Positions 2,823 to 39,589 of a stretch of 55,543 nt of DNA are shown in pieces. A model generated the notes under the pieces. The model made no database searches, was not told the DNA's origin, and saw only the letters and a program-made list of their open reading frames with translations. Position numbers and translations under genes: made by a program. Origin of the DNA: a marine bacterium B5-7 (GTDB taxonomy: Bacteria; Pseudomonadota; Gammaproteobacteria; Arenicellales; CAJQKF01); the NCBI GenBank assembly GCA_021604525.1, contig BQJD01000024.1, positions 1 to 55,543 of the forward strand, read 5' to 3'. How positions within the stretch are numbered: the first letter of the stretch is position 1; every line of letters begins with the position of its first letter.

Positions 2823-3527
2823 TCAGGGAAGCAACGCGCCCCCGTCGATATCGACGGTCGTTCCAGTGATGAAACGGTTGCGAAGAACAAATAACACACC
2901 ATCGGCTATTTCATCGGGCGTGCCGGCACGCGGTATCGGGAAGTCGCGAGTCATTTTCTCCAGGAATTGTTCGCGTTCTTCACCCTGCTGGGCAAACATC
3001 GGTGTGTCGATGATTCCCGGAGAAACCACGTTAATGCGTCGCGGAGAAATTTCGGGGGCGATTGCCCGGGCAAAACCTTCAACCGCATTGCCAACTGTCG
3101 ATATCGCACAAAATCCCGGTAGTGATTTGCGTGCCGGGAAACCACTGATGAGAACGATGGATCCACCATCACTCATATGCCGGGTACCGATTTGCACCGA
3201 ATTAACATAGCCCCACAGCTTTGCAAATGACCCTTGAAAGGCGTCCAGATCCATATCCATAAACGGGCCAATCGCGCGCTCACCACCCGTGGCCGCATTA
3301 ACGAGTATGTCGAATGGTGCGTGTCGGGCAAACAGCTTATCAAGTCCATCCCGATCAAGTACGTTGACCATCTCGCATTTAACGCCGGTGAGTTCGTTCG
3401 AGATTTGCCCACGCCGGCTGGCGGCAATGACTTCAACGCCACTCATATGCAGTGCTTCAACAACGGCAAGACCGATACCGGATGTGCCACCAAGTACAAT
3501 TGCTTTTTGTCCATCAAGATTAATCAT
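2823..3527 (-). CDS. Atypical short-chain dehydrogenase/reductase lacking the YxxxK catalytic pair
   Basis: 234 residues with an SDR Rossmann fold: N-terminal [14 protein letters not shown] (TGxxxGIG cofactor motif), NAATGG at the NAG position, a [10 protein letters not shown] strand and the C-terminal [10 protein letters not shown] and TVDIDGG segments. Where classical SDRs carry YSAAK, this protein reads FCAIS, so both catalytic Tyr and Lys are missing. A divergent SDR branch with a similar 'AIS' sequence exists, so this is probably genuine rather than a sequencing error. Activity may differ from normal dehydrogenases. The ATG overlaps the stop of the upstream aminotransferase gene (ATGA), so the two are probably translationally coupled. 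It is the last gene of the five-gene minus-strand operon. Confidence 0.8.
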
Positions 3528-4963: not shown

Positions 4964-5015
4964 GACATGTGCTCATTGAATAATGATCGATGGATACGTA
5001 TTACGTTTGCGAAGA

Positions 5016-6209
5016 TCAGTGAGCACCGGCGGGTGTTATGCGGCGCCGGGGCGGATTGAAAAATGGACGTTCGACCACACGACAAGTCGCCTTGATGCGT
5101 CGCCATTTAAGTTCGCGCTGTACGTAGATATCCGCCCAGATACCGGCATGATCTGCATCGACATGGTGTTTGATCGAGGCAATGGCGATGCTTTTTTTAC
5201 AGGTCGGCGACCACATTGCCGATGTGACTACACCAATTTCGCGATCACGATGGTCATATAGCAATGCGTCGTTTGCGGGTTTGTTGCCGTCGACATCGAG
5301 ACCAACCAGTTTGAAGCGGCTGGTGCGATTTTGATGCTCGGCAAGCAGCGCACGACGCCCGTTGAAATGACCTTTGTCGAAATTCACCAGCCAGTCGAGA
5401 CCGAGTTCCAGGGGCGAGCGTAAGTTGCCGCCGGGTCGTGTCGCTCGACCGCCTGCCAGGAAGTCAACGTTGGCCTGGATAAAGCCGGCTTCAATGCGGG
5501 TCATCTCCAGTGCCTGCGATCCCATGGGTGTGATTCCATACAGGCGTCCGGCTTCCATTAATGCATCCCAGACATCCAGCGCATGGCGGTCATGGAACCA
5601 GAGCTCATAGCCAAGATCGCCGGTAAAGCCGGTGCGAGAGATGTGTATCGATGCACCATGTAGTTCATATTCGGCAAGGTCGAACGGGCGAAGATTTTCG
5701 ATCCCCGCAAACCCGGCGCTCTTGAGCACCGCGCATGATGTGGGCCCCTGCAATGCCAGTGCTGCGATCGATTCGGTGACCTCCGTTATGTCGACATCAA
5801 ACCCGAAAGCGCTATCCAGCAGCCAGGGCAGGTGACGTTCCTGGCAACACAGGCGGAATCGATTATTGGCAAATCGAAACACGGTGCCGTCATCGATGAG
5901 CATGCCGTCATCGTTGCACCAGGCGACGTAGGCAACCCGGTTAACGCCAAGACGACGAATGTCCCGTGTGAGTAATCGATTGAGAAACGCCTCGGCCGAT
6001 GGTCCTGTAATGTCGTATTTGGTCATCGGCGACAAGTCGAACAATGCGGCGCTGTTGCGTGCGGCAAAATATTCGAGTTGTACATCGGTATAAACCTGTA
6101 CGGTGGTGTAGCCGGACCAGTTCGCCCAATGATTGGTACGGCAATATGCCGAGGTGCGTGGATGAAACGGGGTGGTCAGAACCTGCGATTCGTAAGGTGC
6201 CATGATCAT
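5016..6209 (-). CDS. GcvT-family aminomethyltransferase / folate-dependent demethylase
   Basis: The start at 6209 is chosen because its ATG overlaps the stop of the upstream oxidoreductase (ATGA at 6209-6206); it gives 397 residues beginning MIMAPYES. An open frame further upstream only shadows the neighbouring gene. Family landmarks include LFDLSPMTKYDITGP near residue 60, the folate-side NDDGMLIDDGTVFRF segment, RTGFTGDLGYELW and a C-terminal barrel (SAMWSPT). GcvT-type enzymes pass methyl or methylene groups to tetrahydrofolate. The family also includes DMSP demethylase and the C-terminal parts of sarcosine and dimethylglycine dehydrogenases. No gcvH or gcvP is nearby, so a specialised demethylase is more likely than the housekeeping glycine cleavage T-protein. 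Confidence 0.85.
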   Translation of the reverse strand: MIMAPYESQVLTTPFHPRTSAYCRTNHWANWSGYTTVQVYTDVQLEYFAARNSAALFDLSPMTKYDITGPSAEAFLNRLLTRDIRRLGVNRVAYVAWCNDDGMLIDDGTVFRFANNRFRLCCQERHLPWLLDSAFGFDVDITEVTESIAALALQGPTSCAVLKSAGFAGIENLRPFDLAEYELHGASIHISRTGFTGDLGYELWFHDRHALDVWDALMEAGRLYGITPMGSQALEMTRIEAGFIQANVDFLAGGRATRPGGNLRSPLELGLDWLVNFDKGHFNGRRALLAEHQNRTSRFKLVGLDVDGNKPANDALLYDHRDREIGVVTSAMWSPTCKKSIAIASIKHHVDADHAGIWADIYVQRELKWRRIKATCRVVERPFFNPPRRRITPAGAH

Positions 6210-7771
6210 CGAAGCGATACCGAGGCAAGAATCCGGACGGCGGCATTGCGACCCGGAACACCACTGATACCACCACCGGGATGACAACCCGCGCCGCACA
6301 ACCAGATACCAGCAACAGGTAATTGATACTGTGCCAGTGCGGGGACAGGCCGTAGCATGAAAAACTGGTCGAGAGCGATCTCGGCGTGATGCCAATGGCC
6401 ACCGTGGTTACCAAGTCCGTGTTCTATGTCAGTGGGTAACAATACGCGGGATGCGGTGATGTGCGATTTGAATCCCGGCAACATAAGCTCGGCAATATTT
6501 CGGGTATTTTCAAGCAATGTATCGCGTGCCATGTTGATGTCGCCGATCATCTGATACGGTACGTATTGAACCAGTGCTGTGGCCAGGTGTTGCCGGCTCT
6601 CACGATCAGAGGCATCCAGCATTGTCGGCAACACCAGTTCGACCAACGGCTCAGCGGAAATGCGGCCATACTTGCTATCGTTGAAGGCGCGTTCGATGGT
6701 GTCCATGTCGGGTGCATAAATCAACCGTCGCTTCAATCCGAGCGCGGAAGCAGCGGCAAAGCCGGATAAATTGTCCAGCAGGAAATCGATGCGAGCCGTG
6801 CAGCCGTTGGAGCGGATGTTGCGCACACGGCGGACGAAGCCAGTATCAAGATGATCGGCGCCAACCAGATTAAGGCAAGTGGTGCGCGGGTCGGTGCTTG
6901 ATATGACGGTGGGTGCGGTGATTATCGTTCCGTCGTCGAGTTCAACGCCCCTCGCCATGTCGTTGTCAATCACGACACGCCTGACCAGCGCATTCATGCG
7001 AAAGGTTACGCCGCGTGATTCACAGGCTGATTGCAGTGCCGCACCCAGGGCGCTCATCCCGCCGCGAGGCAGGGCGATCTTGCCTTGTGAACCGGCGAGT
7101 CGCATCAACAGGGTTAGTACGCTGTTGGGAGAACGTGGCGCCAGGTGATGACCGAGTACCGCTTCGGCGGCGATAGCCGCTTTGAACGTTGGATTTTCAA
7201 ATTGCTCTTCGAGGACATCGAAAATATTGATAGCACCGATGCGTAAAAATTCACGCATCTCGCTTCTGCCGAGTCGACGAAGTTTCAAGGCAATCGCAAG
7301 CCAGGTTCGAGCGTTCGCGCTGTCACCGCCAAGACGGGGTGGGCTACGTCGTGCGATGTCGCTGATGATCCCTGAAAATCTGATCAGACGTTGACGGAAT
7401 TCAGGCCACTGTCGTGCATCGTCTTTACTGACACCCGCTAATGACCGTGTATCGTCATTACTCATTGCGTAGTCGATTCGCGAACCGTCGCGGTTGAAAA
7501 CGCTTGAGCCGATATCTTCAACGGCGTAGCTGAAACCATGTCTGGATAATTCGAGATCGTCAACGAGACTACGATCCAGCCCGTAGTCGAGCTGGGCGGC
7601 GAACGGTACGGACAGCCCGTTGAAATCGATCGGTCGCAACGCACCGCCCACCGCGTCTGCAGCATCTACAACCAGTACGCGACGGCGTGCCCGAGCCAGG
7701 TAGGCGGCACAGACCATGCCGTTGTGACCGGCGCCGATGACAATGGCATCGTAGTTGTAGCGCGTACTCAT
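6206..7771 (-). CDS. FAD-dependent oxidoreductase, PYROXD2/phytoene-desaturase-like (second of a pair)
   Basis: 521 residues from the ATG at 7771, which overlaps the stop of the upstream paralogue by ATGA. The longer open frame to 7858 adds a peptide that overlaps the upstream gene and is rejected. The N-terminal dinucleotide fold reads DAIVIGAGHNGMVCAAYLAR, followed by VVDAADAVGG. The C-terminus has LCGAGCHPGGGISGVPG, the second FAD contact typical of the phytoene desaturase/PYROXD2 group. Such flavoproteins oxidise C-C or C-N bonds, but most of this branch has no known substrate. About 40% of positions look shared with the preceding gene by eye, suggesting an old tandem duplication. It couples to the GcvT-like gene downstream. 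Confidence 0.85.
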   Translation of the reverse strand: MSTRYNYDAIVIGAGHNGMVCAAYLARARRRVLVVDAADAVGGALRPIDFNGLSVPFAAQLDYGLDRSLVDDLELSRHGFSYAVEDIGSSVFNRDGSRIDYAMSNDDTRSLAGVSKDDARQWPEFRQRLIRFSGIISDIARRSPPRLGGDSANARTWLAIALKLRRLGRSEMREFLRIGAINIFDVLEEQFENPTFKAAIAAEAVLGHHLAPRSPNSVLTLLMRLAGSQGKIALPRGGMSALGAALQSACESRGVTFRMNALVRRVVIDNDMARGVELDDGTIITAPTVISSTDPRTTCLNLVGADHLDTGFVRRVRNIRSNGCTARIDFLLDNLSGFAAASALGLKRRLIYAPDMDTIERAFNDSKYGRISAEPLVELVLPTMLDASDRESRQHLATALVQYVPYQMIGDINMARDTLLENTRNIAELMLPGFKSHITASRVLLPTDIEHGLGNHGGHWHHAEIALDQFFMLRPVPALAQYQLPVAGIWLCGAGCHPGGGISGVPGRNAAVRILASVSLR

Positions 7772-9354
7772 CGTTTCAGGTCCCGCAAAATCTCGCGCGC
7801 GGCATTCGCCCCCGGCGCGCCCATTACGCCACCGCCGGGATGGGTGCTGGAGCCGCACATATAAAGGCCTTTCACCGGGCTGCGGTATTGCGCGTAACCG
7901 GGTACCGGCCGGTTGAACAACAACTGATCGAGTGTTAGTTCGCCCTGAAAGATATTGCCTTCGGTCAGGCCGACTTCAGCTTCGAGTTCACGTGGTGTGC
8001 GGACTTCGACATCCAGTATCAGGTCTTTGAAATTGGGGCTGTACTCGGCAATACGGTTGATGACCGTATCGCGGAAAGCGTCACGATCGGCATCGGCCCA
8101 GTCGCGGCCGTGAATTTTTGGTGGCACGTATTGCACGAACACCGACATGAAGTGTTTGCCGGGGGGTGCCATGGTTGGATCTGTCATGCTTGGGATCATC
8201 ATGTCGACGTAGGGACGCTTCGACCAGGTGCCGGACTTCCAGTCGTCGTAGGCAATCTCCAGGTAGTCCATGCTGTCACTGACGTGCATGTCGCCGTATC
8301 GTGCCGGGCAGTCGGCTGGAATTGACGGGAACTCGGGCAGACCATCCAGGGCGATGTTGAGCTTGCCGGAGGAGCCTCGAATCTTGAAGTTTTTAACCTG
8401 CCTGACAAAATCGTCCGGCAGGTCCGATGCATCCATGCAATTCAAAAATGTTCGTTTGACATCCATGTTGGAGACGACATTGTTAGCGCGTATCTCGTCG
8501 CCGTTACTTAAGGCGACGCCACACGCCTTGCCGTTTTCAACGATGATCTGCGCAACCGGTGCATCGGTGCGAATTACCCCGCCGGCTTCCTGGAACGCTG
8601 CCGCCAGTGATTTAGACACGGCGCCCATGCCGCCGCGTGCATAACCCCACGCACCAATGTTGCCGTCGACTTCACCCATGTAGTGATGCAAAAGGACGTA
8701 GGCGCTACCCGGTGATTTTGGACCCAATGCCGTACCGATAATGGAGCTGCCGGCGAGATGCCCTTTAATGATGTCGGACTCGAAATACTGATCGAGAAAG
8801 TCGCCGCAACTCATGGTCCAGAATCTGATGGTGTCGTACATCCAGTCCTCGCCTTGTGCCGCGAAGCGACGACCGAGGTCTACCAAGCCCCTCAGATCGC
8901 GGGGCCGAAACGATGTCGGATCCGGCGGAGTCATCAACAAGGTGTCCTTGATGAAGCGGCATTGGCGCAGCACCTCCGCCGAATAGTCGTCATACGCTTC
9001 GGCGTCGCGGGCAGAGTAACGCGCCATCTCTCGGCGATTCTGATCGTGGTCGAGATACGACGCGAAATAGCCGCCATCCTCAGTCATGGTGACACTGCCT
9101 TCGAATGGGATCACCTGTAATCCATGGCGGGGAAGGTCGAGATCGCGCATGATCTCAGGGCGCATCAGGCTGCACACGTACGAGCAGTTGGAGTAGGTGA
9201 ACCCGGGGTAAAGTTCGCGGCTGACCGCGGCGCCGCCGATATACGGATTGCGTTCGACAACCACCGTTTTTACCCCGGCGCGAGCCAGATAGGCAGCCGC
9301 CGTCAGACCGTTATGACCGGCGCCGATTACCAGTGCATCGAAACGATCAGCCAT
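7768..9354 (-). CDS. FAD-dependent oxidoreductase, PYROXD2-like (first of a pair; operon leader)
   Basis: 528 residues. The N-terminal FAD-binding motif is DALVIGAGHNGLTAAAYLAR, then VVERNPYIGG. The C-terminus has GLYMCGSSTHPGGGVMGAPG. No signal peptide. It is the first gene of the minus-strand operon 9354-2823 and lies divergent from the TetR regulator, with 227 bp between the starts. Within the locus it is a candidate for oxidising a C-N bond of a partly demethylated intermediate, but this is inferred from position only. Whether it and its neighbour act as two separate enzymes or as a heteromer cannot be told. Confidence 0.85.
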   Translation of the reverse strand: MADRFDALVIGAGHNGLTAAAYLARAGVKTVVVERNPYIGGAAVSRELYPGFTYSNCSYVCSLMRPEIMRDLDLPRHGLQVIPFEGSVTMTEDGGYFASYLDHDQNRREMARYSARDAEAYDDYSAEVLRQCRFIKDTLLMTPPDPTSFRPRDLRGLVDLGRRFAAQGEDWMYDTIRFWTMSCGDFLDQYFESDIIKGHLAGSSIIGTALGPKSPGSAYVLLHHYMGEVDGNIGAWGYARGGMGAVSKSLAAAFQEAGGVIRTDAPVAQIIVENGKACGVALSNGDEIRANNVVSNMDVKRTFLNCMDASDLPDDFVRQVKNFKIRGSSGKLNIALDGLPEFPSIPADCPARYGDMHVSDSMDYLEIAYDDWKSGTWSKRPYVDMMIPSMTDPTMAPPGKHFMSVFVQYVPPKIHGRDWADADRDAFRDTVINRIAEYSPNFKDLILDVEVRTPRELEAEVGLTEGNIFQGELTLDQLLFNRPVPGYAQYRSPVKGLYMCGSSTHPGGGVMGAPGANAAREILRDLKR

Positions 9355-9520
9355 TGCATCGGGTTTCCACGGTTTTTAAGGAAGCAGCGCGGCGAATCAA
9401 AGGTTGGCAGCACACGCGGTAACTTGAATGTCGCTTTCGACTGACAGATGGCCGAATGACTGAACCGGGGCCAGTTGGATTCGGCTTGAATGAGGCCGGA
9501 TTCACGATTTCAATCTTGAT

Positions 9521-9534
9521 TGAATGCTCATTCA
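9521..9534. promoter_or_regulatory. Perfect palindrome in the divergent promoter region, candidate TetR operator
   Basis: TGAATGCTCATTCA has perfect 6-bp arms (TGAATG / CATTCA) around a 2-bp spacer. It lies 47 bp upstream of the TetR-family gene at 9582 and inside the 227-bp gap shared with the FAD oxidoreductase operon. The position and symmetry fit a site for the adjacent BetI-like regulator controlling both directions. No binding data. Confidence 0.45.
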
Positions 9535-9581
9535 GTGGATGATATCATGAGTTCCATGATGTGTAACCTGTTACCGATTCA

Positions 9582-10325
9582 ATGGGAATTTTCCACTGCG
9601 GCATGCCACAGAGCGATTTAAACTTGCATCAAAATTCCGTTAACCGAGATACGACTGCCAAGGAGTCATCGGAAAAAGACCTGGTGCGCACGCAAAGCCC
9701 TGCGAATTCACAGCGCACCCTGCCGCGGGAATTGCGCCGCCTGCAACTCATTGAATCCACCATCGACTGCATCGCCAAACGTGGCCTCACTGATACCCGC
9801 ATGGCCGATGTCGCAGCCGGAGCGGGACTATCGGTGGGCATCGTCAACTTCCACTTCGATAGTAAAACAACGTTACTGGCTGAAACTTTGCGCTACCTTG
9901 CGGATGAATATCATCAGGCCTGGATCGAGGCACGTAACGAATCTGATGAAGACCCGGCGAAGCAGTTGCTTTCTCTCACACGCATGAATTTTGAACCACG
10001 GATATGTAATCAACGTCGCATTGCCGTGTGGTATGCATTCTTTGGTGAAGCGCGTTCGAGACCGACATACAGCAACCTTTGTCAGCAGTTGGACGACGAC
10101 TATCTCGATCAGATGAGAACATTATTTGGCAGCTTGTTTGATGATGGTAATGAACGACGCGCCCATCGCGCTTCATTGATGTTAATGGCGCTTTGGGATG
10201 GGCTGTGGCAAAACATCCTGCTCAATCCTGATGTATTCAATACCGATGAGGCAGTACGTGCCTGTGAGCATTGGCTGGCCTGTATGTTGCCTGAGCATTT
10301 TAAACAGCCGGATAATTCCGCATGA
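9582..10325 (+). CDS. BetI-like TetR-family transcriptional regulator
   Basis: 247 residues. After an unusual polar N-terminal tail of about 45 residues comes a TetR helix-turn-helix domain (roughly residues 48-95): TDTRMADVAAGAGLSVGIVN followed by FHFDSKTTLLAETL. The C-terminal part contains RIAVWYAFFGEA and a helix AHRASLMLMALWDGLW, as in BetI-type repressors that sense choline or betaine-like effectors. A shorter protein starting at the ATG at 9603 is possible. It closely resembles the N-terminal half of the TetR-Rieske fusion at 15242, so the two are paralogues. It is divergent from the oxidoreductase operon and is the natural candidate to control it. Confidence 0.85.
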   Translation: MGIFHCGMPQSDLNLHQNSVNRDTTAKESSEKDLVRTQSPANSQRTLPRELRRLQLIESTIDCIAKRGLTDTRMADVAAGAGLSVGIVNFHFDSKTTLLAETLRYLADEYHQAWIEARNESDEDPAKQLLSLTRMNFEPRICNQRRIAVWYAFFGEARSRPTYSNLCQQLDDDYLDQMRTLFGSLFDDGNERRAHRASLMLMALWDGLWQNILLNPDVFNTDEAVRACEHWLACMLPEHFKQPDNSA

Positions 10326-10338
10326 CGGCTGACTTGAG

Positions 10339-10968: not shown

Positions 10969-12090
10969 GTGAAACAGAATGACATGATTGCCGCACTACG
11001 CGGTGGCACCGTAACGAGACGAGAAGCTGTCAAGGCTTTGTCAGCCATGGGTCTGACCATGGCAACTCTACCCGGTATTGCCGGACGCGCCATGGCCCAG
11101 TCCGAACGAGGCACTTATTTTACCTGGGGTGGCTATGACGACACAGGGTTGTTCCCGACCTACATCGCCAAACATGGCGCGCCACCAAATTTTGTGACTT
11201 ACGGCGATGCCGAAGAAGGGTTCACCAAGATGAAGGCGGGTTACGTTGTGGACGTGGTGCATCCGTGCTCCAACGACATTCCACGCTGGAAGGAGTCGGG
11301 CCTGTTCCAGCCTATCGACACCTCGAAATTGTCCAACTTTCCTGATGTCTTCGAGCGTCTTGCCACGTTGCCGGGTGCGCGTGACGACGCCGGTCAATGG
11401 TACGTCCCGTTCGAGTGGGGCGCCACGTCGATCACCTACCGCACGGACCTCGTGGGTTCGGACCCTGGCGGTGAATCGTGGAACATGCTTTTCGATGAGC
11501 AATACAAGGGCAAGATTGCCGTCATCGACAGCGCAGCCGATACCTGGTGGTGCATGGCAATCCTTGCCGGCGTCGACATCAGCAAACCGCTCACCCCGGA
11601 GAACATCGAAAAGACTACCGAACTGATGCGCAGACTGCATCCTCAGATCCGCATGTACACCAATGACATGACATCCCTGGCGCAGTCACTGGCGTCTGGT
11701 GAAGTCGTCATGGCAATTACCTGGAATGAGGTTCCGGTGCAGCTCACCGGTGAGGGTGTGCCTGTGAAGTTCGCCGCACCGAAGGAAGGTGCGCTAACCT
11801 GGAACTGCGGCCTGATGATGCACAAGGATGCGCCTAACCCGGATGATGCCCATGACATCATTGACGCCATGCTGTCCGTCGAGACCGGCAAATACTGCAT
11901 TGAGGAATACGGCTACGGTCATTCCAATGCCAAGTCCTTCGATCAGGTCGATGCCGAGACCCTTGCCAGCCTTGGTCTCGATGTGAACCCCACCGACTAC
12001 ATCGACGCGGGTAATTTCATCTATCCCCAGACGGATGAGGTGGAGACGCAGATGAACCGCGACTTCGAAAGCGTGAAGACCGGTTTCTAG
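10969..12090 (+). CDS. Polyamine-type ABC transporter substrate-binding protein
   Basis: 373 residues from a GTG start; GGAGGAG at 10957-10963 gives a good ribosome-binding site, while the overlapping ATG at 10967 runs straight into TGA. The N-terminus has TRREAVKALSAMG and a hydrophobic stretch ending AMAQ, a twin-arginine-like or Sec signal with cleavage near residue 44. The mature part follows the PotD/PotF fold: GDAEEGFTKMKAG, PFEWGATSITYRTDLVG, WNEVPVQLTGEG. It should bind a cationic amine or betaine-like solute in the periplasm and deliver it to the permeases encoded next. The ligand cannot be read from the sequence. Confidence 0.88.
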   Translation: MKQNDMIAALRGGTVTRREAVKALSAMGLTMATLPGIAGRAMAQSERGTYFTWGGYDDTGLFPTYIAKHGAPPNFVTYGDAEEGFTKMKAGYVVDVVHPCSNDIPRWKESGLFQPIDTSKLSNFPDVFERLATLPGARDDAGQWYVPFEWGATSITYRTDLVGSDPGGESWNMLFDEQYKGKIAVIDSAADTWWCMAILAGVDISKPLTPENIEKTTELMRRLHPQIRMYTNDMTSLAQSLASGEVVMAITWNEVPVQLTGEGVPVKFAAPKEGALTWNCGLMMHKDAPNPDDAHDIIDAMLSVETGKYCIEEYGYGHSNAKSFDQVDAETLASLGLDVNPTDYIDAGNFIYPQTDEVETQMNRDFESVKTGF

Positions 12091-12114
12091 TACCGAGATG
12101 TACGACCAGCGAAC

Positions 12115-12133
12115 GGCGGGCGCAATGCCCGCC
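12115..12133 (+). terminator. Intercistronic hairpin between binding protein and permease
   Basis: GGCGGGC and GCCCGCC form a perfect 7-bp stem around GCAAT, with no T-tract after it. Hairpins here are common in ABC operons, where they protect the abundant binding-protein mRNA or partly stop transcription into the permease genes. It lies in the 84-bp gap before the permease start. Confidence 0.6.
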
Positions 12134-12174
12134 CTCGCAAAATCTGTCGCGTTACTGCACCCGGAACCGCGCTC

Positions 12175-13092
12175 GTGAATACGGTCGCGATCATAGTCGA
12201 GGCGCCGCGTGCCGGGTTTTGGCGTCGCTGGTTGATGCGTAGCGAGGCGTTGCGCGGTTATCTGCTGCTGTCGCCAACGCTGCTGGTGATGCTCGGTATC
12301 ATGGTCATTCCCATGGTGGGCATGGTAGTGCTGAGTTTCTGGACTCAACACGCCGGCAACACGTTCGACACCACCCTCACGCTCAAGAATTATACCGATG
12401 CGTTCACACGTGACATGTACCGTATCCTGTTCATGCGTTCGCTCGGCATATCACTGCTGACTACGCTGTTCACTGTTCTTTTGGCCTATCCGATGGCCTA
12501 CTTCGTGGCCTTTCATGTAAAACGGCACAAGATGGTGTGGATCATCCTGATGACACTGCCGTTCTGGACCAGTTATCTGCTCCGGGTGTTCGCGTGGAAA
12601 ATCATTCTCGGCTACAACGGCGCCATCAATTCCGGATTGATCTCCATGGGGGTCATAAGCGAGCCGCTGACCATCCTGCTCTACAACCCGACGGCCGTGG
12701 TCATCACGCTCACTCATGCGTGGGCGGCATTCGCTATTTTGCCCATTTATGTATCGCTGGAGAAAATAGACCGTTCGCTGCTGGAGGCTGCCACTGATCT
12801 GGGCGACGGACCCGTGGCGCGATTCTTTCGTATCGTGCTGCCCCTCTCGCTCCCTGGCATTATTGCAGCGTCGGTACTGATCTTCATTCCAACGGTCGGT
12901 GACTACGTGACGCCTTCCCTGGTCGGCGGTACCGACGGCTACATGATTTCCAATGCAATCCAGTTCCAGTTCGCGCGCGGCAACAACTGGCCGCTCGGCG
13001 CGGCGCTTGCGCTGTCGTCCATGGTGATCGTGACGGCCATCGTTCTGGTGTATGTCACCGTTATTCGGCGGCTGACGGCGCGCATCGGTTGA
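12175..13092 (+). CDS. ABC transporter permease, PotB-like
   Basis: 305 residues, GTG start. Six hydrophobic segments are visible, beginning LLLSPTLLVMLGIMVIPMVG. The coupling EAA loop is near residues 200-220 (LLEAATDLGDGP followed by FFRIVLPLSLPGI). This is the PotB/PotH subfamily of spermidine/putrescine-type importers. It partners the PotC-like permease encoded 9 bp downstream in the inner membrane. Confidence 0.9.
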   Translation: MNTVAIIVEAPRAGFWRRWLMRSEALRGYLLLSPTLLVMLGIMVIPMVGMVVLSFWTQHAGNTFDTTLTLKNYTDAFTRDMYRILFMRSLGISLLTTLFTVLLAYPMAYFVAFHVKRHKMVWIILMTLPFWTSYLLRVFAWKIILGYNGAINSGLISMGVISEPLTILLYNPTAVVITLTHAWAAFAILPIYVSLEKIDRSLLEAATDLGDGPVARFFRIVLPLSLPGIIAASVLIFIPTVGDYVTPSLVGGTDGYMISNAIQFQFARGNNWPLGAALALSSMVIVTAIVLVYVTVIRRLTARIG

Positions 13093-13101
13093 GGGCTAAT
13101 T

Positions 13102-13923
13102 ATGAGCGGCATCGGCAGAGAGAAAAACAGGCCGCTGGCAATTTATGCCGTGTTTTATCTTGCCTTTCTCTACCTCCCGGTACTGTTTCTGCCGGTCTTC
13201 TCGGTCAACGACTCGATCTATATTTCCTTCCCGCTCAAAGGCTTCACCTGGCAATGGTATGAGTCGATGATCGGCAACGAACCCATGCTGAACTCGCTGA
13301 TGAACAGCATTCGCGTAGCGCTGGCAACTGCAACTATCAGCACGCTGCTCGGCATTTTCGCCGCCAAGGCGGTGACTCGTTATACGCTACCTGGTGCAAG
13401 GCCGGTAATCGCCACCATCATGTTGCCGCTGGTAGTGCCGGAAATCATCCTCGGTACGGCATTATTGATTGTCATCATGCAGGCTGGCGGTACGCTATCA
13501 CTGTTGACCGTAACGCTCGGCCACATACTGTTGTGCGTACCGTTTTCCATGGCCGTTCTCATGTCGCGCTTTGAAGGTTTCGATCGCTCCATGGAGGAGG
13601 CCTCGGCGGATCTCGGCGAAAATGCCTGGTGGACATTCTGGCGAGTGACCCTGCCCATGGCGATGCCCGGTATTACGTCGAGTTTCCTCTTGTGTTTCAC
13701 CATCTCCTTCGACGAATTCATCATGGCATTCTTCCTAGGCAGTACCGATCCGACGTTGCCGGTTTTCATGTGGAACCAACTCAGGTTTCCGCAGCGATTA
13801 CCCGGTGTCCTGGCGCTTGGTTCATGCATATTGCTGGCATCATTTTTTGTGATTGCCCTGGCGGAATATTTGAGGCGGCGCAGTTCGTTTAATTCAGACC
13901 CGGGCGCTATAACAATTGACTGA
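13102..13923 (+). CDS. ABC transporter permease, PotC-like
   Basis: 273 residues with about six membrane segments, starting with YAVFYLAFLYLPVLFLPVF. The EAA loop reads EEASADLGENAWWTFWRVTL. The IFSFxxF-like segment before the last helices (CFTISFDEFIMAFFLG) is typical of PotC/PotI. It forms the transmembrane pore together with the PotB-like protein. Its end overlaps the start of the ATPase gene by 8 nt, so translation is coupled. Confidence 0.9.
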   Translation: MSGIGREKNRPLAIYAVFYLAFLYLPVLFLPVFSVNDSIYISFPLKGFTWQWYESMIGNEPMLNSLMNSIRVALATATISTLLGIFAAKAVTRYTLPGARPVIATIMLPLVVPEIILGTALLIVIMQAGGTLSLLTVTLGHILLCVPFSMAVLMSRFEGFDRSMEEASADLGENAWWTFWRVTLPMAMPGITSSFLLCFTISFDEFIMAFFLGSTDPTLPVFMWNQLRFPQRLPGVLALGSCILLASFFVIALAEYLRRRSSFNSDPGAITID

Positions 13924-15019
13924 CGCAATCATCAGCCTTAAGGGCATCACCAAATCGTTTGGCGCCTTCAAGGCTGTCGACAATATCAATCTTGATATCG
14001 CTCGTGGCGAATTCTTCTCCCTGCTTGGGCCGTCCGGCTGTGGCAAGACCACCTTGTTGCGCATGATTGCAGGATTCGAGATGCCCACATGCGGGGAAAT
14101 CCTCATCGATGGTGATTCGATGCAGGCTGTGCCACCGCATCTGCGACCTACCAACATGGTGTTTCAGAGCTATGCCATTTTTCCGCATTTAAGCGTCGGG
14201 CAAAATGTCGCCTACGGATTGAGAAAGGATCGACTTGCCCGCAGCGAGCTGGACCGCAGGGTGGCTGAATCGCTGGCCATGGTGAAGTTGACAGGGTTCG
14301 AGTCGCGCAAGTCGGATGAATTGTCAGGCGGTCAGCGTCAGCGTGTTGCCCTGGCGCGTGCCCTGATCAAGCGACCGAAGGTGTTGTTGCTCGACGAACC
14401 ACTGGGGGCATTGGACCGAAAACTTCGCGAGGAGATGCAGCTTGAGCTTAGAAGCTTGCAGCGTAGCGTGGGTATTACGTTCGTATTTGTCACCCATGAC
14501 CAGGAAGAGGCCCTGACGATGTCGGACCGGGTGGCGGTAATGGGCAGCGGTCGGGCAATACAGGTGGCCTCGCCTCGAGACCTGTATGAGCGCCCGAGTT
14601 CCATGGAAGTCGCCGGTTTCATCGGTAAGATGAATTTCCTCATGGCGCGACTGATCGGTTCCGATGATGATCGAATCCTGGTTAAGGCCGATGGGCTTGG
14701 GCAGGTTGCCGCCAATGGCGATAAGGCCCAATTGAATGGTGCCGAAGTGGTCGTTGCGGTGCGCCCGGAGAAGTTGGTGCTGCACACCAGCGAACCCGCC
14801 AGCGGCTCGCGAATAGCCTGTCATATGCACAATAGCGCCTATCTCGGCGATCGCAGCCATTACTTTGTCCAGGTGGATGGGCTTAAATCGCCACTTGCCG
14901 TATCCACCCAAAACGCCGATGCGATTGCCGCCAGTGAACTGGCGGACGGCGCCGATCTGTGGCTATCCTGGTCGGATGATGCCTTGCTGGTTCTGCCTGC
15001 CGACGAACCGGAAAACTAA
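13916..15019 (+). CDS. ABC transporter ATP-binding protein, PotA-like
   Basis: 367 residues. The start is TTG at 13916, which reads MTDAIISLKGITKSFG and overlaps the permease stop by 8 nt. Walker A is GPSGCGKTT (about residues 38-46), the signature is LSGGQRQRVALARAL, Walker B is VLLLDEPLGALD, and the switch His is in FVTHDQEEA. A C-terminal TOBE-like domain (about 240-367) includes VVAVRPEKLVL. It energises the importer encoded by the two permeases and the binding protein. It ends the four-gene transporter operon. Confidence 0.92.
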   Translation: MTDAIISLKGITKSFGAFKAVDNINLDIARGEFFSLLGPSGCGKTTLLRMIAGFEMPTCGEILIDGDSMQAVPPHLRPTNMVFQSYAIFPHLSVGQNVAYGLRKDRLARSELDRRVAESLAMVKLTGFESRKSDELSGGQRQRVALARALIKRPKVLLLDEPLGALDRKLREEMQLELRSLQRSVGITFVFVTHDQEEALTMSDRVAVMGSGRAIQVASPRDLYERPSSMEVAGFIGKMNFLMARLIGSDDDRILVKADGLGQVAANGDKAQLNGAEVVVAVRPEKLVLHTSEPASGSRIACHMHNSAYLGDRSHYFVQVDGLKSPLAVSTQNADAIAASELADGADLWLSWSDDALLVLPADEPEN

Positions 15020-15170: not shown

Positions 15171-15200
15171 TTGAACAAACGTTTAACAAAGTTGTATAAT
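15171..15200 (+). promoter_or_regulatory. Sigma70-type promoter with internal palindrome, upstream of the TetR-Rieske gene
   Basis: TTGAAC (15171-15176) as -35 and TATAAT (15195-15200, perfect consensus) as -10 are 18 bp apart. The palindrome AAACGTTT (15177-15184) lies in the spacer directly after the -35 box, and a separate GTTCA follows the -10. This is a good place for an auto-repressor, perhaps the TetR half of the protein encoded 41 bp downstream. The 222-bp gap after the transporter operon contains nothing else I recognise. Confidence 0.55.
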
Positions 15201-15241
15201 CGTTCAGAATTGTTGTTAAGCTATTTCTGCGAGCTAAGGTC

Positions 15242-17083
15242 ATGACTCAAGCCATTATACGAACTGCCGTTGACGATATTGACAGTCGTCAGGATCGGCG
15301 GGCACAGCTAATCGAAGCCACCATGGAGGGGATACGACAATTCGGAATCTCGAAAACAACCGTCGCCAAGGTCGCCACCTTGGCGGGCTTGTCGCCGGGT
15401 ATCGTCAATTTCTACTTCAAGAGCAAGGAGCAACTCCTTCTCGAAACACTGAAGAGCATCGCCAGTGAATACGAATCTGCCGTTGCCGATGCACTGGACC
15501 GGGCACGTGGTGCCGAGGAATCGTTACTGGCGATTATCGATGTCAATCTCGACGAGAAAATCCTCAATCCGAGAACTGCATCCGTGTGGTACGCATTTTG
15601 GGGGGAAAGTCAGGCGAGAGCGGATTACCTGAGAATATTCGGCCAGCGTGAAGCGGCCATGCAGGAACGTGTCTACTCGCTGTTTGAAGCGCTCAGCGAA
15701 TCCACTGAAAGAACGTCGATAAACGCTCGTGCCGTAGCCCGGGCTTTCGATGCCTTGATCGATTCATTCTGGGAAGACTGCATGGCGGACCCGCAGGGTT
15801 TCGATCGTGGCTTAAGTCGCGAAACATGCGTAGCCTATCTTAACAGTGTATTTCCTGACCGCTTCGCACATGACCAATCAACGGTCAGCGATCTGCCATC
15901 ATCGTCAAAGCGTCGCGGATCAGAAGACGCAAGTGTTGATGGCATGCTGACGACCTGGACTTATCGCAACAGTGAGTTCTTCGATGTCGAGATGGATACG
16001 CTGCTGAAACGTCAGTGGATGTTGGTCGGGCACATTAGCGAGATTGCCAACTGCGGCGACTATCTGACGTTCGATGTCGCGGGAGAACGCGCCCTTGTTA
16101 TACGTGATAAGAATGGCAAGCTGCAGGCATTCCATAATGTGTGTCAGCATCGTGGATCGCGTGTGGTGGAAGGCGAGCGTGGCAACTGCCCTCGCTCCAT
16201 CGTTTGTCCATTTCATGGCTGGACATATAACCTCGATGGATCGCTCAAGAATATTCCGGCGGCAAATACCTTTCCTGGTATCGACAAGAAAAAACACGGT
16301 CTTGTAGCGCTGGAACTGGAGGAATGGCAAGGTTTTGTGTTTGTGCGCTTTAAAAGCGGCGGCGTGTCTTTAGCCGAACAGTTAAAACCGGTTGAGCATC
16401 TGGTTGCCCCGTACCGCATGGCGGAGTTGCAACCCCGTTCGAAACGCTATCGAAAAGAGTATGCCTACAACTGGAAGATCATTCATGACGTCGATAACGA
16501 AGGCTATCATGTGCCCATGGCGCATCCGAGTCTTCAGCAACTATACGGCAAATCCTATAAGGATCTCGAGGTCGATGGCGTCGTGTATTCAACCGGCATT
16601 GTCGACGATCAACCGGCGCGATTGTGGAGTGTAAGCAACTATAAAAAAATACTGCCAAGGTTTGATCATCTCCCGGATGAGCATCAACGGCTATGGCTGT
16701 ATGTCGGCGTATTTCCCAACATGGTGTTTGCGATTTATCCCGATAGCGTCGAGTTCTATATGACTCTGCCGTTAAGCGTGGACCGCACTGCGATGATTGG
16801 TGCGAGTTATGTTCTGACTGACGAACGACGCGAAGTACGGGTGACACGTTACTTGAACGATCGCATTAATATGTTGACCGACAAAGAAGATCGTAATTTG
16901 TGCAAGTGGTTACAGGAGGGCGTACGCTCCAGCGTGTTTCCAATCAATATGCTGTCGGAACTCGAACACGGTGTCCTCGGCTTTCACCGCAGGATAAAGG
17001 AAAGAATACCGGTCGCACGACTTGCCGATGAACCGGCACCGGGTACTCTTAAGCAGGTGAATGACTTAATGCTTGATGGATAA
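15242..17083 (+). CDS. Fusion of a BetI/TetR regulator with a Rieske [2Fe-2S] oxygenase alpha subunit
   Basis: 613 residues in one uninterrupted frame. Residues 1-205 form a full TetR protein: HTH with TTVAKVATLAGLSPGIVN (39-56), FYFKSKEQLLLETL, and the BetI-like SVWYAFWGESQAR. A polar linker follows (about 208-233). Residues 236-613 form a Rieske oxygenase of the GbcA/stachydrine-demethylase type. Its 2Fe-2S ligands are C301, H303, C322 and H325; the mononuclear iron site is around HDVDNEGYHVPMAHPSL with H423 and H428, and D550 is a possible third ligand. Such oxygenases demethylate quaternary amines and need a reductase, and none is encoded in the window. An internal ATG at codon 235 (nt 15944) could give a separate oxygenase, but no convincing ribosome-binding site precedes it. 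A lost stop codon between two older genes is the simplest origin. Confidence 0.9.
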   Translation: MTQAIIRTAVDDIDSRQDRRAQLIEATMEGIRQFGISKTTVAKVATLAGLSPGIVNFYFKSKEQLLLETLKSIASEYESAVADALDRARGAEESLLAIIDVNLDEKILNPRTASVWYAFWGESQARADYLRIFGQREAAMQERVYSLFEALSESTERTSINARAVARAFDALIDSFWEDCMADPQGFDRGLSRETCVAYLNSVFPDRFAHDQSTVSDLPSSSKRRGSEDASVDGMLTTWTYRNSEFFDVEMDTLLKRQWMLVGHISEIANCGDYLTFDVAGERALVIRDKNGKLQAFHNVCQHRGSRVVEGERGNCPRSIVCPFHGWTYNLDGSLKNIPAANTFPGIDKKKHGLVALELEEWQGFVFVRFKSGGVSLAEQLKPVEHLVAPYRMAELQPRSKRYRKEYAYNWKIIHDVDNEGYHVPMAHPSLQQLYGKSYKDLEVDGVVYSTGIVDDQPARLWSVSNYKKILPRFDHLPDEHQRLWLYVGVFPNMVFAIYPDSVEFYMTLPLSVDRTAMIGASYVLTDERREVRVTRYLNDRINMLTDKEDRNLCKWLQEGVRSSVFPINMLSELEHGVLGFHRRIKERIPVARLADEPAPGTLKQVNDLMLDG

Positions 17084-17158: not shown

Positions 17159-17941
17159 TCAGTCCGGTTTCCTGGCACGTAGATGATGAGGGCAGTGTTC
17201 GCCGGATTCGAGCACGGTCAGCATCGCCGTCCAGGTATCGATGTTGTGATCGACGACGGCCTTGCCAGCCGCTTCACAGGCGCGATCATAGAGATCGCCG
17301 GCAATAGCATCCCTCTCTCTTTGAGCGACATCGCGATACCAGACGTTGCGGTTGGTCAGTGATATCTCATCAAAGCCGGCTGCTTGAAGCGCTGCTCCAT
17401 AGCGATTCGGCGACGCCATGCCGAAGCTTAAACCTTCCAGTGCAATGTAGTGTTTCATCTCATCGGAAGGTTCGTCGTCATGACCGATCAGCCAGTCGCT
17501 GGCGATAAACCAGCCACCCGGTTTCAGTATCCGGTAAACATCGGCGAATAATAATTCCTTCTCCGGAATATGAATCATCGAGTCCTTACTGAAAGCGACA
17601 TCGAAGCTTTCATCATCATAAGGCAATGGCCCGGATTCGACTTGCTGTAGAGTAATACGATCTTCAAGGCCGTGTTTATTTACACGTTCGGCGGCGCGGG
17701 CCAGTACACCACGTTCGATATCTACGCCAACCACTTCGCCTGCGCCATAACGCTCCACCAATTCCATCGCGATACCGCCTGAACCGCAACCGATATCGAG
17801 GACACGTTTTCCGTTTAAAAGAAACTCACCTATGATGCGTGCGACTTCCTCCGATCCGCCAGGTGAGAGATAACCTTCTCCCCAAACGACTTCAAGAAAG
17901 TTGATCAGGTCGGTTGAATATTCTTCTTCAGCCTCGTTCAT
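17159..17941 (-). CDS. SAM-dependent methyltransferase, PEAMT/sarcosine-dimethylglycine methyltransferase-like
   Basis: 260 residues. Motif I is VLDIGCGSGGIAMELV, followed by VVGVDIERGVLARA (acidic residue of motif I post), then PYDDESFDVAFSKDSMIHIP and RILKPGGWFIASDW. The N-terminal FLEVVWGEGYLSPGGSEEVA is close to the YGxGxxSxGGxxxT signature of phosphoethanolamine and sarcosine/dimethylglycine N-methyltransferases. A nitrogen methyl acceptor is therefore likely. In a demethylation locus it may run in the methyl-accepting direction or make a methylated osmolyte; neither can be proved here. It lies 19 bp after the TMADH-like gene, so the two form an operon that converges on the TetR-Rieske gene. 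Confidence 0.82.
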   Translation of the reverse strand: MNEAEEEYSTDLINFLEVVWGEGYLSPGGSEEVARIIGEFLLNGKRVLDIGCGSGGIAMELVERYGAGEVVGVDIERGVLARAAERVNKHGLEDRITLQQVESGPLPYDDESFDVAFSKDSMIHIPEKELLFADVYRILKPGGWFIASDWLIGHDDEPSDEMKHYIALEGLSFGMASPNRYGAALQAAGFDEISLTNRNVWYRDVAQRERDAIAGDLYDRACEAAGKAVVDHNIDTWTAMLTVLESGEHCPHHLRARKPD

Positions 17942-17960
17942 GGTTGCTCCGATTGATGTT

Positions 17961-20012
17961 TTAAACGGTTACGATCTCACGACGCGGCATGATCATGGAT
18001 GGTTGTCCGCTTTGATGGCAATCCACCTCACGCGCGAAACGATGTCCGGCGTGAACCGCGTGGGCAATGAGTGCCGGCGCCAGACAGTCACCGATTCGTT
18101 CAATAGTTTGTATGCCCTCAGGGGCCAGTTCCAGGATTTCATAGTACAGCGCATCTACTGGCGTGCGCGAGGTCACCGTTAATAACGAAGTTGCATCGAG
18201 TTCTGTTGCCTTACCTGAAAACAGGCAGGCGATCGATGCAATCTGCCCATCATATTTATTTACCAGGTGATTAGGAATTACATTCACACCGAGCTCGATC
18301 AGGCGTGCATTGCTGCGATGTAGCTCATCGGTATAGGCGGTCCACTCGGCAGCCACGGTGCCGGTGGTCACCAGGGTGACGTCATGGCCATCCGCAACCA
18401 GTTGTTCCGCCAGTACCACCGCCATGTAGTAACCATCGTCATCATAGATAACCACCGGGCCAGCCGGTAACGGTTCAGCATTCATGTCCATGATGTCATC
18501 GGGAGTCAATATGCCAGGTAGATCAAAGCCGGTAACCGGCGTTCGATGTTCACGTCCAATGCCGTCACGTCGCCAGCGCGCGCCGGTTGCGATTGCAACT
18601 ATGGTTGCATCGAATTCAACGATATCCTGAGCACCCATCGGGCTTGCCAGGAACAGCTCAAGATTGGGTAAGTTGTTCATCAGTTGCAGGCGATGATCGC
18701 GTACCCGTGACCATGCGCCAAGACCCGGCAACGCCGACTCGCGGGTAACTCGCCCACCCGATGTATTGGCTGCGTCCGCCAGGGTCACCTGATAACCCCG
18801 ACGCGCCAACGTCACGGCGGCTTCAAGTCCTGCGGGTCCGGCACCAACTATCAGTACCGAACTGTCCGAAGCGGCCGGCTCGACTTTTTCCGGATGCCAA
18901 CCGCTGCGCCATTCCTCACCCATGGTTGGATTCTGGGTGCAACGTATCGGGTTGCCGCGTGAATCGGATGCATAACAAATATTGCAACCAATACATTCAC
19001 GAATCTCATCGATGCGGCCATCGCTAATCTTGTTGGGTAAAAACGGGTCGGCGATTGATGGTCGTGCAGCACCGATAAAATCGAGCACACCGCTTGATAT
19101 CATGCGCGCCATTGTATCAGGGGATGTAAAGCGGCCAACGCCGACGACCGGCTTGCCGACCAGCTCACGGACTTCCCGCGCGAAGCTCTCTTGCGCGCCT
19201 TCTTCAACAAATCGTGAACTACCCATATCCATTGAATAATCGTCAACGACCACATCCCAGATATCGGCCAGTGGTCCCAGCGATTCCATCATCGCTTTAA
19301 GCTCTTCACTGGATACATCGTAACCGCCGACATTAGCCATGGAAAACCGTATCGCCAGTGCCCTGTCAGGGCCAATGGCATCTCGTGCTTCAAGCAGCAG
19401 CTCGCGAACGATACGCATACGATTTTCAACAGAACCACCATACTCATCGACACGATGATTGGTCGACTTTGACAGGAAGTTGTTAAGCAGATAACCGTGG
19501 GTCGCGTATACATAGACGATATCGAAGCCGGCAGTCGCTGCACGTTTTGCGGCATCACGATGCCAGCGCCTGAGTTCAACGATATCCCGCCGATCCATGA
19601 CGCGGCATTGCACCGGGTCAGTTCTTGACGGAATGCTGACAAGGTCCATAGACGGTTGTCGACTGGCGAGATTGGCCACGTAATTGCCGCCATACCACAA
19701 CTCCACGCCTGCCAGTGAACCATGCTGTTTAACTGCCTCAACCATCAGGGCATTGGCCTTGATATCTTCGTTGTCCCACAGGCTGGCATAGGGATAGGGC
19801 GTGTCATCCGATGATGGATGAATCGAACAATACTCGGTATTAACCACACCCCATCCACCCTCGGCCTTGACGCCGCGCATTGCCGCAAGGGATTGAGGTC
19901 GGTCGCGTCCCATGCCGGTACAGTGCGGTACCTGGTAGAAACGATTGGGTGCGGTGACGGGGCCGATAGCCACCTGCTCGAACAGAACGTCGTAACGCGG
20001 ATCGCGGCTCAT
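17961..20012 (-). CDS. Trimethylamine dehydrogenase-family flavoprotein (DgcA/StcD/TMADH-like N-demethylase)
   Basis: 683 residues in three parts: an FMN TIM barrel of the old-yellow-enzyme family (1-330), a [4Fe-4S] site with C340, C343, C346 and C358 (CIGCNIC then RCTQNP), and two nucleotide-binding folds (VLIVGAGPAGLEAA near 388; VVIYDDDGYYMAVVLAEQLV near 510). VPHCTGMG places C31 where TMADH has the Cys that binds FMN covalently, and NTEYCSI keeps the Tyr of the substrate pocket (Y61). The two Trp of the TMADH aromatic cage seem to be replaced, so the substrate is probably not trimethylamine. Dimethylglycine and N-methylproline demethylases belong to the same family. Electrons would pass via FeS to an acceptor not encoded here. 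Confidence 0.85.
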   Translation of the reverse strand: MSRDPRYDVLFEQVAIGPVTAPNRFYQVPHCTGMGRDRPQSLAAMRGVKAEGGWGVVNTEYCSIHPSSDDTPYPYASLWDNEDIKANALMVEAVKQHGSLAGVELWYGGNYVANLASRQPSMDLVSIPSRTDPVQCRVMDRRDIVELRRWHRDAAKRAATAGFDIVYVYATHGYLLNNFLSKSTNHRVDEYGGSVENRMRIVRELLLEARDAIGPDRALAIRFSMANVGGYDVSSEELKAMMESLGPLADIWDVVVDDYSMDMGSSRFVEEGAQESFAREVRELVGKPVVGVGRFTSPDTMARMISSGVLDFIGAARPSIADPFLPNKISDGRIDEIRECIGCNICYASDSRGNPIRCTQNPTMGEEWRSGWHPEKVEPAASDSSVLIVGAGPAGLEAAVTLARRGYQVTLADAANTSGGRVTRESALPGLGAWSRVRDHRLQLMNNLPNLELFLASPMGAQDIVEFDATIVAIATGARWRRDGIGREHRTPVTGFDLPGILTPDDIMDMNAEPLPAGPVVIYDDDGYYMAVVLAEQLVADGHDVTLVTTGTVAAEWTAYTDELHRSNARLIELGVNVIPNHLVNKYDGQIASIACLFSGKATELDATSLLTVTSRTPVDALYYEILELAPEGIQTIERIGDCLAPALIAHAVHAGHRFAREVDCHQSGQPSMIMPRREIVTV

Positions 20013-23743: not shown

Positions 23744-24688
23744 GTGGACGCATCAATGCTTGAAGAAACGATTCAGAATCCGAACCCGTATCCGATTATT
23801 GGCGAGCTGCAGTACCAGGATGTCTGGAATTTGTGTCAGCAGGCGCGTGAACTGGCATGGGATGCTGATAAGGATATTGATTGGGTCGCGCTTAAAGATG
23901 AATTATCAATCTTGCCAGAGGAAGTTCGCGTGGCGGGTGCCGAGTGGTGGTCACTACGAGCATGGATGGAACATGGGGCGACACCCTATGGGGCGGAAAG
24001 ATACCGTCAGGCGGTTTATGAACATCTGCCATTTGAGATCAAGCAGCACGTGGCGAACTTCATCATGGAGGAATTGCGTCACCACGAAGCATCCTTTCGG
24101 ATAGCTGATGCGCTTGGTGGTTATCAACCGAGCCCGCGCAGTGACTATTTCAAACTCGTTATCCCAAAATTTCATGATGAGAAGGAAGAAAAACAAATGT
24201 CCTTCTATGCGGGCATGGCAGTCAATACACTATTCGAACAGCTTTCCGGAGAATTACTGGCTGCACGCTACAGGAACGCGCGCTTTGACGGGATAAAGCA
24301 TGCCTGCAAGTTGATCCTGCGTGATGAAGCCCGGCATGTACAGTTCGGACGGATTCTGATGAAACGGTTCTTCGACCAACTTGATGTCGAAGAGAAGAAG
24401 ATGCTCGGTAACAAGTTTGCCGGGAAATTACGCGGTAGTCTCCTGAACGGGGTTTATGCCGTAGTTAATTTGCCAGAGGACGAACGCAAACGTTCATCAC
24501 ACGCACGAGCCCTTGCTGCAGAACACGGCCTGGGTGCGACTTATCCAGACGAGGAAGTCGAAATTATTGCCACGGCACTGCAACAGATTCGCGATGACAT
24601 TGCACCATACGATGTGCCTATACCGCGTATTCCCGAGATTGAAGGTGAAACAGATCCACCCATGCAGCGTGCGGCGGCTACCTTATAG
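23744..24688 (+). CDS. Ferritin-like diiron carboxylate protein of unknown substrate
   Basis: 314 residues from GTG at 23744; GAGGAG at 23731-23736 is spaced 7 nt and decides this start over the ATG at 23756. The helical core shows diiron ligands: EEL-R-HHE near residues 109-115 (ExxxHxE), E near EQLSGE, and DEARHVQFG near residue 198. An earlier Glu in AEWWSLRAWMEHG may complete the site. This layout is that of ferritin-like oxygenases and oxidases such as AurF-type N-oxygenases, R2-like oxidases and other uncharacterised groups. It is the first gene next to the divergent GntR regulator. It may carry out the first oxidative step in the locus, but its substrate is unknown. Confidence 0.8.
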   Translation: MDASMLEETIQNPNPYPIIGELQYQDVWNLCQQARELAWDADKDIDWVALKDELSILPEEVRVAGAEWWSLRAWMEHGATPYGAERYRQAVYEHLPFEIKQHVANFIMEELRHHEASFRIADALGGYQPSPRSDYFKLVIPKFHDEKEEKQMSFYAGMAVNTLFEQLSGELLAARYRNARFDGIKHACKLILRDEARHVQFGRILMKRFFDQLDVEEKKMLGNKFAGKLRGSLLNGVYAVVNLPEDERKRSSHARALAAEHGLGATYPDEEVEIIATALQQIRDDIAPYDVPIPRIPEIEGETDPPMQRAAATL

Positions 24689-39368: not shown

Positions 39369-39589
39369 TCCATCTCCTCCAATAAGCTGAAGGTTCTGTG
39401 CGCCGTATCTTCCTGCAGAACGCTGATCGCGATGCCGGCATGGATCAGAACATAATCGCCTACGACGGCCTCCGGCACAAAAGCGAGGCTTGCACCGCGC
39501 ACCGCGTCACCGAAGCGGATTTGCCCGCTGCGCGACAATGCGTCGTCCCCTGTGATACTGATAATTTCTCCCGGTACGGCCAGGCACAT
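39365..39589 (-). CDS. hypC: Hydrogenase assembly chaperone HypC/HupF
   Basis: 74 residues beginning MCLAVPGEI, with the essential Cys2 of the family. An OB-fold core follows ([36 protein letters not shown]). HypC shuttles the Fe(CN)2CO unit to the large-subunit precursor. It lies 17 bp after hypF. Confidence 0.95.

Follow-up and report, generated by a model that had tools for sequence, protein, structure and literature searches.

The window analysed here, a stretch of 55,543 nucleotides from the marine bacterium B5-7, contains an open reading frame in which a regulator of the TetR type is followed by a Rieske oxygenase. This raises the question whether the two parts really belong to one protein, and whether a catabolic enzyme might in this way carry a DNA-binding domain that acts on its own promoter. 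Such trigger enzymes are described as few, and E. coli is said to have five of them with a built-in DNA-binding domain (PMC8249747). A sequence-only reading of the window had proposed this role for the fusion. As judged by titles and abstract openings, no description of a TetR/BetI-Rieske fusion was found among the open-access papers listed.

Architecture of the fusion protein

The fused gene lies on the forward strand (15242–17083) and encodes a TetR (BetI-type)-Rieske oxygenase of 613 amino acids, and its frame runs from the TetR part into the Rieske part without a stop, as had been read from the sequence. All four Pfam domains of the protein exceed their gathering scores. The helix-turn-helix (HTH) suggested for the N-terminal part was recovered as a TetR_N domain (residues 23–68, 15308–15445; PF00440, 39.3 bits against a cut-off of 24) with the recognition helix SPGIVNFYF, and it is followed by TetR_C_6, a ligand and dimer domain of the BetI type (residues 92–204, 15515–15853; PF13977, 57.5 bits against 27). 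After a linker (residues 210–230, 15869–15931) come the Rieske [2Fe-2S] domain (residues 258–343, 16013–16270; PF00355) and the catalytic domain Ring_hydroxyl_A (residues 401–589, 16442–17008; PF00848), all on the same strand. Both the cluster ligands C301, H303, C322 and H325 and the histidine pair H423 and H428 had been placed correctly by the sequence-only reading, and together with E420 they are invariant in all 19 aligned fusions. H423 and H428 belong to the mononuclear iron site, for which E575 is an invariant candidate for the carboxylate ligand.

An AlphaFold model of the fusion (19 rows) reached a pLDDT of 83.4 and a pTM of 0.63. Residues 210–230 are disordered between the two parts (pLDDT below 50), which bears out the linker that had been expected there; among the fusions, it is flexible and variable in length. 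An internal start at codon 235, also suggested earlier, is not conserved, as methionine occupies this column in 5 of 19 rows. A free Rieske protein made from this codon is thus unsupported, and in the window no clear ribosome-binding site lies upstream of it.

Relation to known oxygenases and regulators

The best solved matches in a Foldseek search were the chains 6zgp and 6y9c of the carnitine monooxygenase CntA (TM by target 0.81–0.82, 24–25% identity), and stachydrine demethylase (Stc2) followed at rank 13. These proteins are the closest solved relatives in sequence as well as in fold, and the histidine ligands of CntA align, as does its bridging glutamate E205 (PMC10952381), which corresponds to E420 of the fusion. 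However, identity is only about 25%, and neither CntA nor Stc2 has a DNA-binding domain. A Cys-X-X-Cys next to the iron has been described for some group V (quaternary ammonium) enzymes (PMC10952381); the fusion lacks this pair and has G421 and V424 at the corresponding positions 421 and 424. The highest-scoring NCBIfam equivalog was the GbcA model NF058607, with 146.7 bits far under its cut-off of 670, and an identity as glycine betaine monooxygenase was therefore rejected.

The regulator part resembles the choline-sensing repressor BetI, with which it shares the order TetR_N and TetR_C_6. Its score fell below the cut-off of the BetI model TIGR03384 (122.8 against 201.3 bits) and lay just above that of NF001978 (118.7 against 118). 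Palindromes over the -10 and -35 elements occur in both: BetI2 of Ruegeria is described as a BetI-family repressor with two palindromes in this position (PMC12442346). BetI differs in that it is not fused to an enzyme, and the betI1 box reported for Ruegeria, ATTGACG-CGTCAAT, is unlike the 6-4-6 site of the fusion described below (PMC12442346).

Distribution of the fusion

All locus counts given here are inflated by near relatives; in the order of the window, 54 of 109 genomes matched the protein at E ≤ 1e-60, in 56 places, of which 36 include the TetR part (the match starting no later than query residue 18), 18 are limited to the Rieske part and two are partial (G039 and G044). Relatives thus occur both fused and stand-alone, and not always as two genes. 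Both congeners carry full-length relatives free of stops (73% and 72%), and two fusions of the order sit in one-contig genomes (G046 and G047). In a sample of the class, 6 of 369 genomes matched including that of the window, with fusions in the window's genome, G321, G448 and G228. Sampling of the phylum gave 22 matching genomes out of 398, the window's alone being fused; a profile search for a fused TetR domain in the loci of the other 21 found none, and in seven of these 21 TetR genes lie near the Rieske gene on other frames or strands. The best 80 loci of a scan of genome contigs included 13 whole TetR-Rieske fusions and one more cut by a contig end, labelled as gamma, alpha, one delta or just proteobacterium. 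Isolates are represented by Inquilinus limosus and Rhodospirillaceae SYSU D60014. The plasmid collection gave 39 matching records, none with a single place covering 80% of the query.

Some loci depart from the simple arrangement. In G228 (L178, 8669–12064) and G448 (L179, 8111–11289), the immediate neighbour of the fusion is another Rieske gene of this clade, which stands alone. At L172 (G096, 8170–10331), TetR and Rieske parts are found in overlapping but different frames, which represents either a broken fusion or an assembly error.

Could the long frame be an artefact of assembly or gene prediction that joins two genes? Many of the relatives are metagenome bins, and the different frames in G096 would speak in the same direction. 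However, the frame of the window crosses the junction free of stops and frameshifts, and the same stop-free junction recurs in many genomes, among them the congeners, 36 of the 56 places in the order, the two one-contig genomes and the two isolates, so that it is no sequencing accident. An artefact is therefore rejected as extremely improbable, and the TetR-Rieske fusion is real.

History and selection

In a tree of TetR domains made by a quick method (57 rows), the 31 fused domains form one side of a branch with an SH-aLRT support of 92. This is consistent with a single fusion event, though no proof of it. The tree of Rieske parts (77 rows) is more complex: it takes 13 changes to explain the fusion label, both sides of the midpoint root contain fusions, and relatives without the TetR domain are interspersed among them. 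Both trees fit a history in which the fusion arose early and its TetR part was lost repeatedly, without any root being inferred from the trees.

Both halves of the fusion are under purifying selection. In three pairs, dS could be measured for both parts; here the TetR domain had dN/dS values of 0.148, 0.133 and 0.102, close to those of the enzyme part (0.179, 0.117 and 0.079). For the HTH, values of 0.032 and 0.033 were obtained in two pairs, dS being saturated in the third.

Within the family of the window, a gene of G003 (L162, 9442–10899) has about 100 residues in front of its Rieske part. By eye, this stretch looks like a shortened TetR remnant without HTH, and it includes TVATYLRNLFP, which resembles the end of a TetR domain; Pfam did not find a TetR domain in it.

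A predicted operator pair over the fusion promoter

A palindrome in the promoter had been pointed out by the sequence-only reading, and AAACGTTT indeed lies at 15177–15184 between TTGAAC and TATAAT. However, two longer sites are present, the first of which has AAACGTTT as its core, and the predicted operator consists of both, each of 16 bp, and not of AAACGTTT alone. The first, O1 (TTGAACAAACGTTTAA, 15171–15186, forward strand), includes the -35-like hexamer TTGAAC, and the second, O2 (TTGTATAATCGTTCAG, 15192–15207, forward strand), contains the -10-like TATAAT (15195–15200), so that a sigma-70-like promoter TTGAAC-18-TATAAT overlies the pair. A promoter scanner gave 5 promoter-like sites in this region against 2.4 in shuffles, by which the promoter call alone is weak. 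The same 6-4-6 palindrome, TTGAAY-N4-RTTCAA, is found in fusion promoters in two copies 20 or 21 bp apart (start to start) and spans the -35 and -10 of most fusion genes. This pair is the predicted binding site of the fused TetR part.

The consensus was first spotted by eye in 35 promoters from loci that are not independent, and in this same set 27 of 35 fusion promoters reached a pair score of at least 20, compared with 0 of 5250 random stretches from the same loci, true sites being excluded from this null. Shuffled promoters never reached the score of their own locus in 27 of the 35 loci, and in the other eight, 1 to 17 of 100 shuffles did. With a matrix trained without the group tested, 34 of 35 fusion promoters exceeded all 1000 random stretches. 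In the whole genome of the window (4.41 Mb), a single pair match within three mismatches was found, at the fusion promoter and without mismatch, and a control pattern gave none. Palindrome symmetry without the consensus gave a signal too weak to use. Single sites were of no help for proposing a broad regulon, which was rejected: the one-mismatch pattern was uninformative, with 146 forward matches against 106 for the control in the own genome. Sites over the transporter operon are mostly absent.

Operator pair and fused recognition helix

The pair follows the presence of the fused domain. A pair score of at least 20 was reached by 28 of 38 fusion rows, or more properly 28 of 37, since the contig of fusion row L069 lacks the promoter, versus none of 39 stand-alone Rieske rows, among them L060_S_1, a fragment of the L057 fusion, and one duplicate. 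With these two excluded, independent pairs taken from the tree agreed in fusion and operator pair in a mean of 5.1 of 7 cases and never showed the opposite (median p 0.0625). With the full matrix, a score of at least 16.5 is reached by 29 of 37 fusion rows, and the 38 stand-alone rows score at most 13.1, the 12 from the order of the window ranging from -14.5 to 9.4; the scores of the eight weakest fusions overlap with those of stand-alone rows. Of 43 distinct fusions, nine stay below the pair threshold, and seven of these, namely L064 and six with an alpha label (including L070 and L073), show no obvious decay of the helix. All seven exceed random stretches by the matrix.

The pair also follows the sequence of the fused helix. 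The sole promoter that failed in the group-left-out test, L157, belongs to the same gene as L052 (genome G065), and in this gene and its relative L051 (G058) the helices PAGSVRSHF and PPGAVKTHF replace the usual S-x-G-I-V-N-F-Y-F. At L051 and L052, where the recognition helix has diverged, the operator pair is absent. Eleven fusions of one genus with the helix STSIVNFYF carry a T as the fourth base of each of their four half-sites (NTGTAY), and this T is found in 0 of 23 other fusions with sites, including L033 and L038 of the same genus (STGIANFYF); this half-site switch, which goes with a Gly-to-Ser exchange in the helix, represents one lineage. As the operator pair tracks both presence and sequence of the fused DNA-binding domain, it supports the proposal of a trigger enzyme.

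Similar sites occur at loci of related regulators. At rhizobial loci with a separate TetR protein (helix SRGIVNFHF), a single site of the TTGAATGAACGTTCAG/A type lies about 85 bp before the Rieske gene, and as far as the predicted sites tell, the fused regulator seems to recognise the same half-site, though in an operator with two copies of the palindrome. Sphingomonad loci L130, L132 and L138 carry a single palindrome of the TTATACGATCGTATAA type, another half-site variant, between divergent TetR and Rieske genes.

Gene neighbourhood and proposed pathway

Just upstream of the fusion lies an operon for a polyamine-type ABC transporter with a binding protein, two permeases and an ATPase (10969–15019, forward strand), which was assigned by Pfam for the binding protein and by the neighbour clusters c4, c2 and c1 and visible ATPase motifs for the rest. 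Further upstream, on the reverse strand, Pfam identified a class-III aminotransferase, a GcvT-like aminomethyltransferase and two FAD oxidoreductases (3524–9354), which are likely to catalyse later steps of the same pathway. Downstream, also on the reverse strand, a SAM-dependent methyltransferase-like gene and one for an OYE/TMADH-like flavoprotein (17159–20012; Pfam) were assigned to the pathway by position only.

A separate BetI-like TetR gene (9582–10325, forward strand) lies 5 kb from the fusion. Its product is 34% identical to the fused TetR part and has the nearly identical helix SVGIVNFHF, which makes it a possible cross-regulator. A single site, TTGAATGCTCATTCAG (9520–9535, forward strand), is located between the FAD oxidoreductase gene and this gene, and similar single sites precede its counterparts in both congeners.

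Across 35 loci, many of which are cut by contig ends, the polyamine-type ABC transporter is the commonest neighbour, its clusters c1 to c4 occurring in 28, 24, 21 and 20 loci, with c1 pooling several ATPases. The class-III aminotransferase is found in 17 of 35 loci and an FAD amine oxidase (c6, by Pfam of one member) in 7 of 35. Nearly the same gene set is found in Fuscovulum ytuae, where the Rieske oxygenase and the TetR protein are encoded by separate genes, and a Shinella locus resembles this arrangement. The neighbouring genes, matched by those of Fuscovulum ytuae, point to a pathway in which an N-methylated amine is imported and then demethylated and deaminated step by step. Literature on homarine and betaine pathways named no substrate, and a general Pfam scan named no choline dehydrogenase among ten neighbours. 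No reductase gene was recognised in the cluster of the window; the genome encodes five FAD_binding_6 proteins as potential reductases, none of them in the window.

Proposed mechanism and comparison with known systems

We consider it likely that the fusion is a CntA-like Rieske oxygenase that represses its own gene in the manner of PutA. This reading builds on what was computed, namely the fusion, its conservation, purifying selection on its two parts, and an operator pair that goes with the fused DNA-binding domain. DNA binding, repression, the ligand, catalysis by N-demethylation and any crosstalk between the halves are inferred, and repression by the fused TetR part is suggested by sequence only. 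Negative autoregulation is the most likely mode. In the absence of a signal, TetR dimers would occupy O1 and O2 over the -35 and -10 elements and shut off their own gene. The signal would probably be the substrate or the product, an N-methylated or quaternary amine imported by the neighbouring ABC transporter. Once bound by the BetI-type domain, it would cause release of the DNA, and enzyme and repressor would rise together until the substrate is consumed and the circuit resets.

PutA, the trigger enzyme of proline utilisation, is described as a single protein that acts as a catabolic enzyme and also represses both its own gene and a transporter gene, under control of its substrate (PMC8249747). 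Like PutA, the fusion combines a DNA-binding domain and an intact enzyme in one polypeptide and has a predicted operator at its own gene. The two differ in enzyme, cofactors and operators, and the transporter gene is a target of PutA, whereas the transporter operon next to the fusion is mostly without a site. The DNA-binding fold of PutA also differs from TetR. Another related case is BzdR, in which an HTH is linked to a shikimate-kinase-like domain reported to be without kinase activity (PMC3602430). The fusion likewise joins an HTH via a linker to an enzyme-derived domain, but its enzyme part retains the metal-ligand residues tested.

How far the two halves communicate is a separate matter. 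They might work without talking to each other, so that the fusion only fixes their ratio and lets them share a promoter with no allosteric link, as could be expected from the flexible linker of variable length and from stand-alone Rieske genes that keep the same half-site with a separate TetR gene in the cluster. We take this as a serious possibility, if somewhat less than an even one; that one fusion lasted across gamma- and alphaproteobacteria argues against it, though this is by itself no proof of a link. Alternatively, the Rieske half could be mainly a sensor whose cluster or iron site reports redox state, oxygen or iron to the TetR part, turnover being secondary. A redox centre covalently tied to a DNA-binding domain would suit such a role, but the catalytic ligands and the bridging glutamate are kept in 19 of 19 fusions and stand-alone orthologues occur in the same catabolic clusters, which makes a mere sensor unlikely.

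The operator pair could also serve a different regulator, for instance the separate BetI-like protein, with the fused TetR part left as a relic or oligomerisation domain. The nearly identical helix of that protein and the similar site in front of its gene fit this idea. It is, however, at odds with the low dN/dS of the fused HTH in the two measurable pairs (0.032 and 0.033) and with the loss of the pair together with the fusion (0/39 versus 28/38, or 28/37 as corrected) and its variation with the fused helix; moreover, most of the gamma fusion loci fetched have no second TetR gene within about 10 kb. We therefore regard it as improbable. The reading of the fusion as an autorepressing oxygenase is supported by its recurrence, by the selection on both halves and, as far as the predicted sites go, by the conserved operator pair over its own promoter. 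The covalent link between regulator and enzyme and the trigger-enzyme role proposed from the sequence are both supported; in this role, substrate or iron-sulfur state might act on repression, as that proposal suggested.

A further step from the autorepressing oxygenase, which we put forward tentatively and consider rather doubtful, is that sensor, repressor and enzyme form one allosteric machine that grips O1 and O2 as a higher assembly. CntA is described as a head-to-tail Rieske trimer with threefold symmetry (PMC7948474). Only a larger assembly, such as a hexamer, would allow twofold TetR dimers and a threefold Rieske trimer to form in the same particle. A particle of this kind could hold O1 and O2 together, which lie about two helical turns apart, and substrate or reduction of the cluster could change the assembly so that the particle lets go of the DNA.

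Significance

The fusion would be a trigger enzyme of a known kind with a new combination of domains. If the proposed role is true, it adds a TetR-type trigger enzyme built on an oxygen-activating iron-sulfur enzyme and spread across gamma- and alphaproteobacteria. Losses of the TetR part, the lineage with a diverged helix and the lineage with a switched half-site provide natural controls, in which the fusion was kept, retuned or abandoned. The operator would also help to identify the effector of this uncharacterised Rieske clade and, through it, perhaps the substrate. If the allosteric machine were to hold as well, a metalloenzyme would signal its own workload to its own promoter.

Other features of the window

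Two further regions of the window were recorded. A frame of 314 residues lies at 23744–24688 and has no Pfam match. On the reverse strand, a hydrogenase-like cluster (37228–47161) contains, by Pfam, HypF (39607–42048), a NiFe large-subunit-like protein (42614–43924) and a 4Fe-4S dicluster protein (46016–47161), and by eye the neighbouring genes are HypD- and HypE-like.
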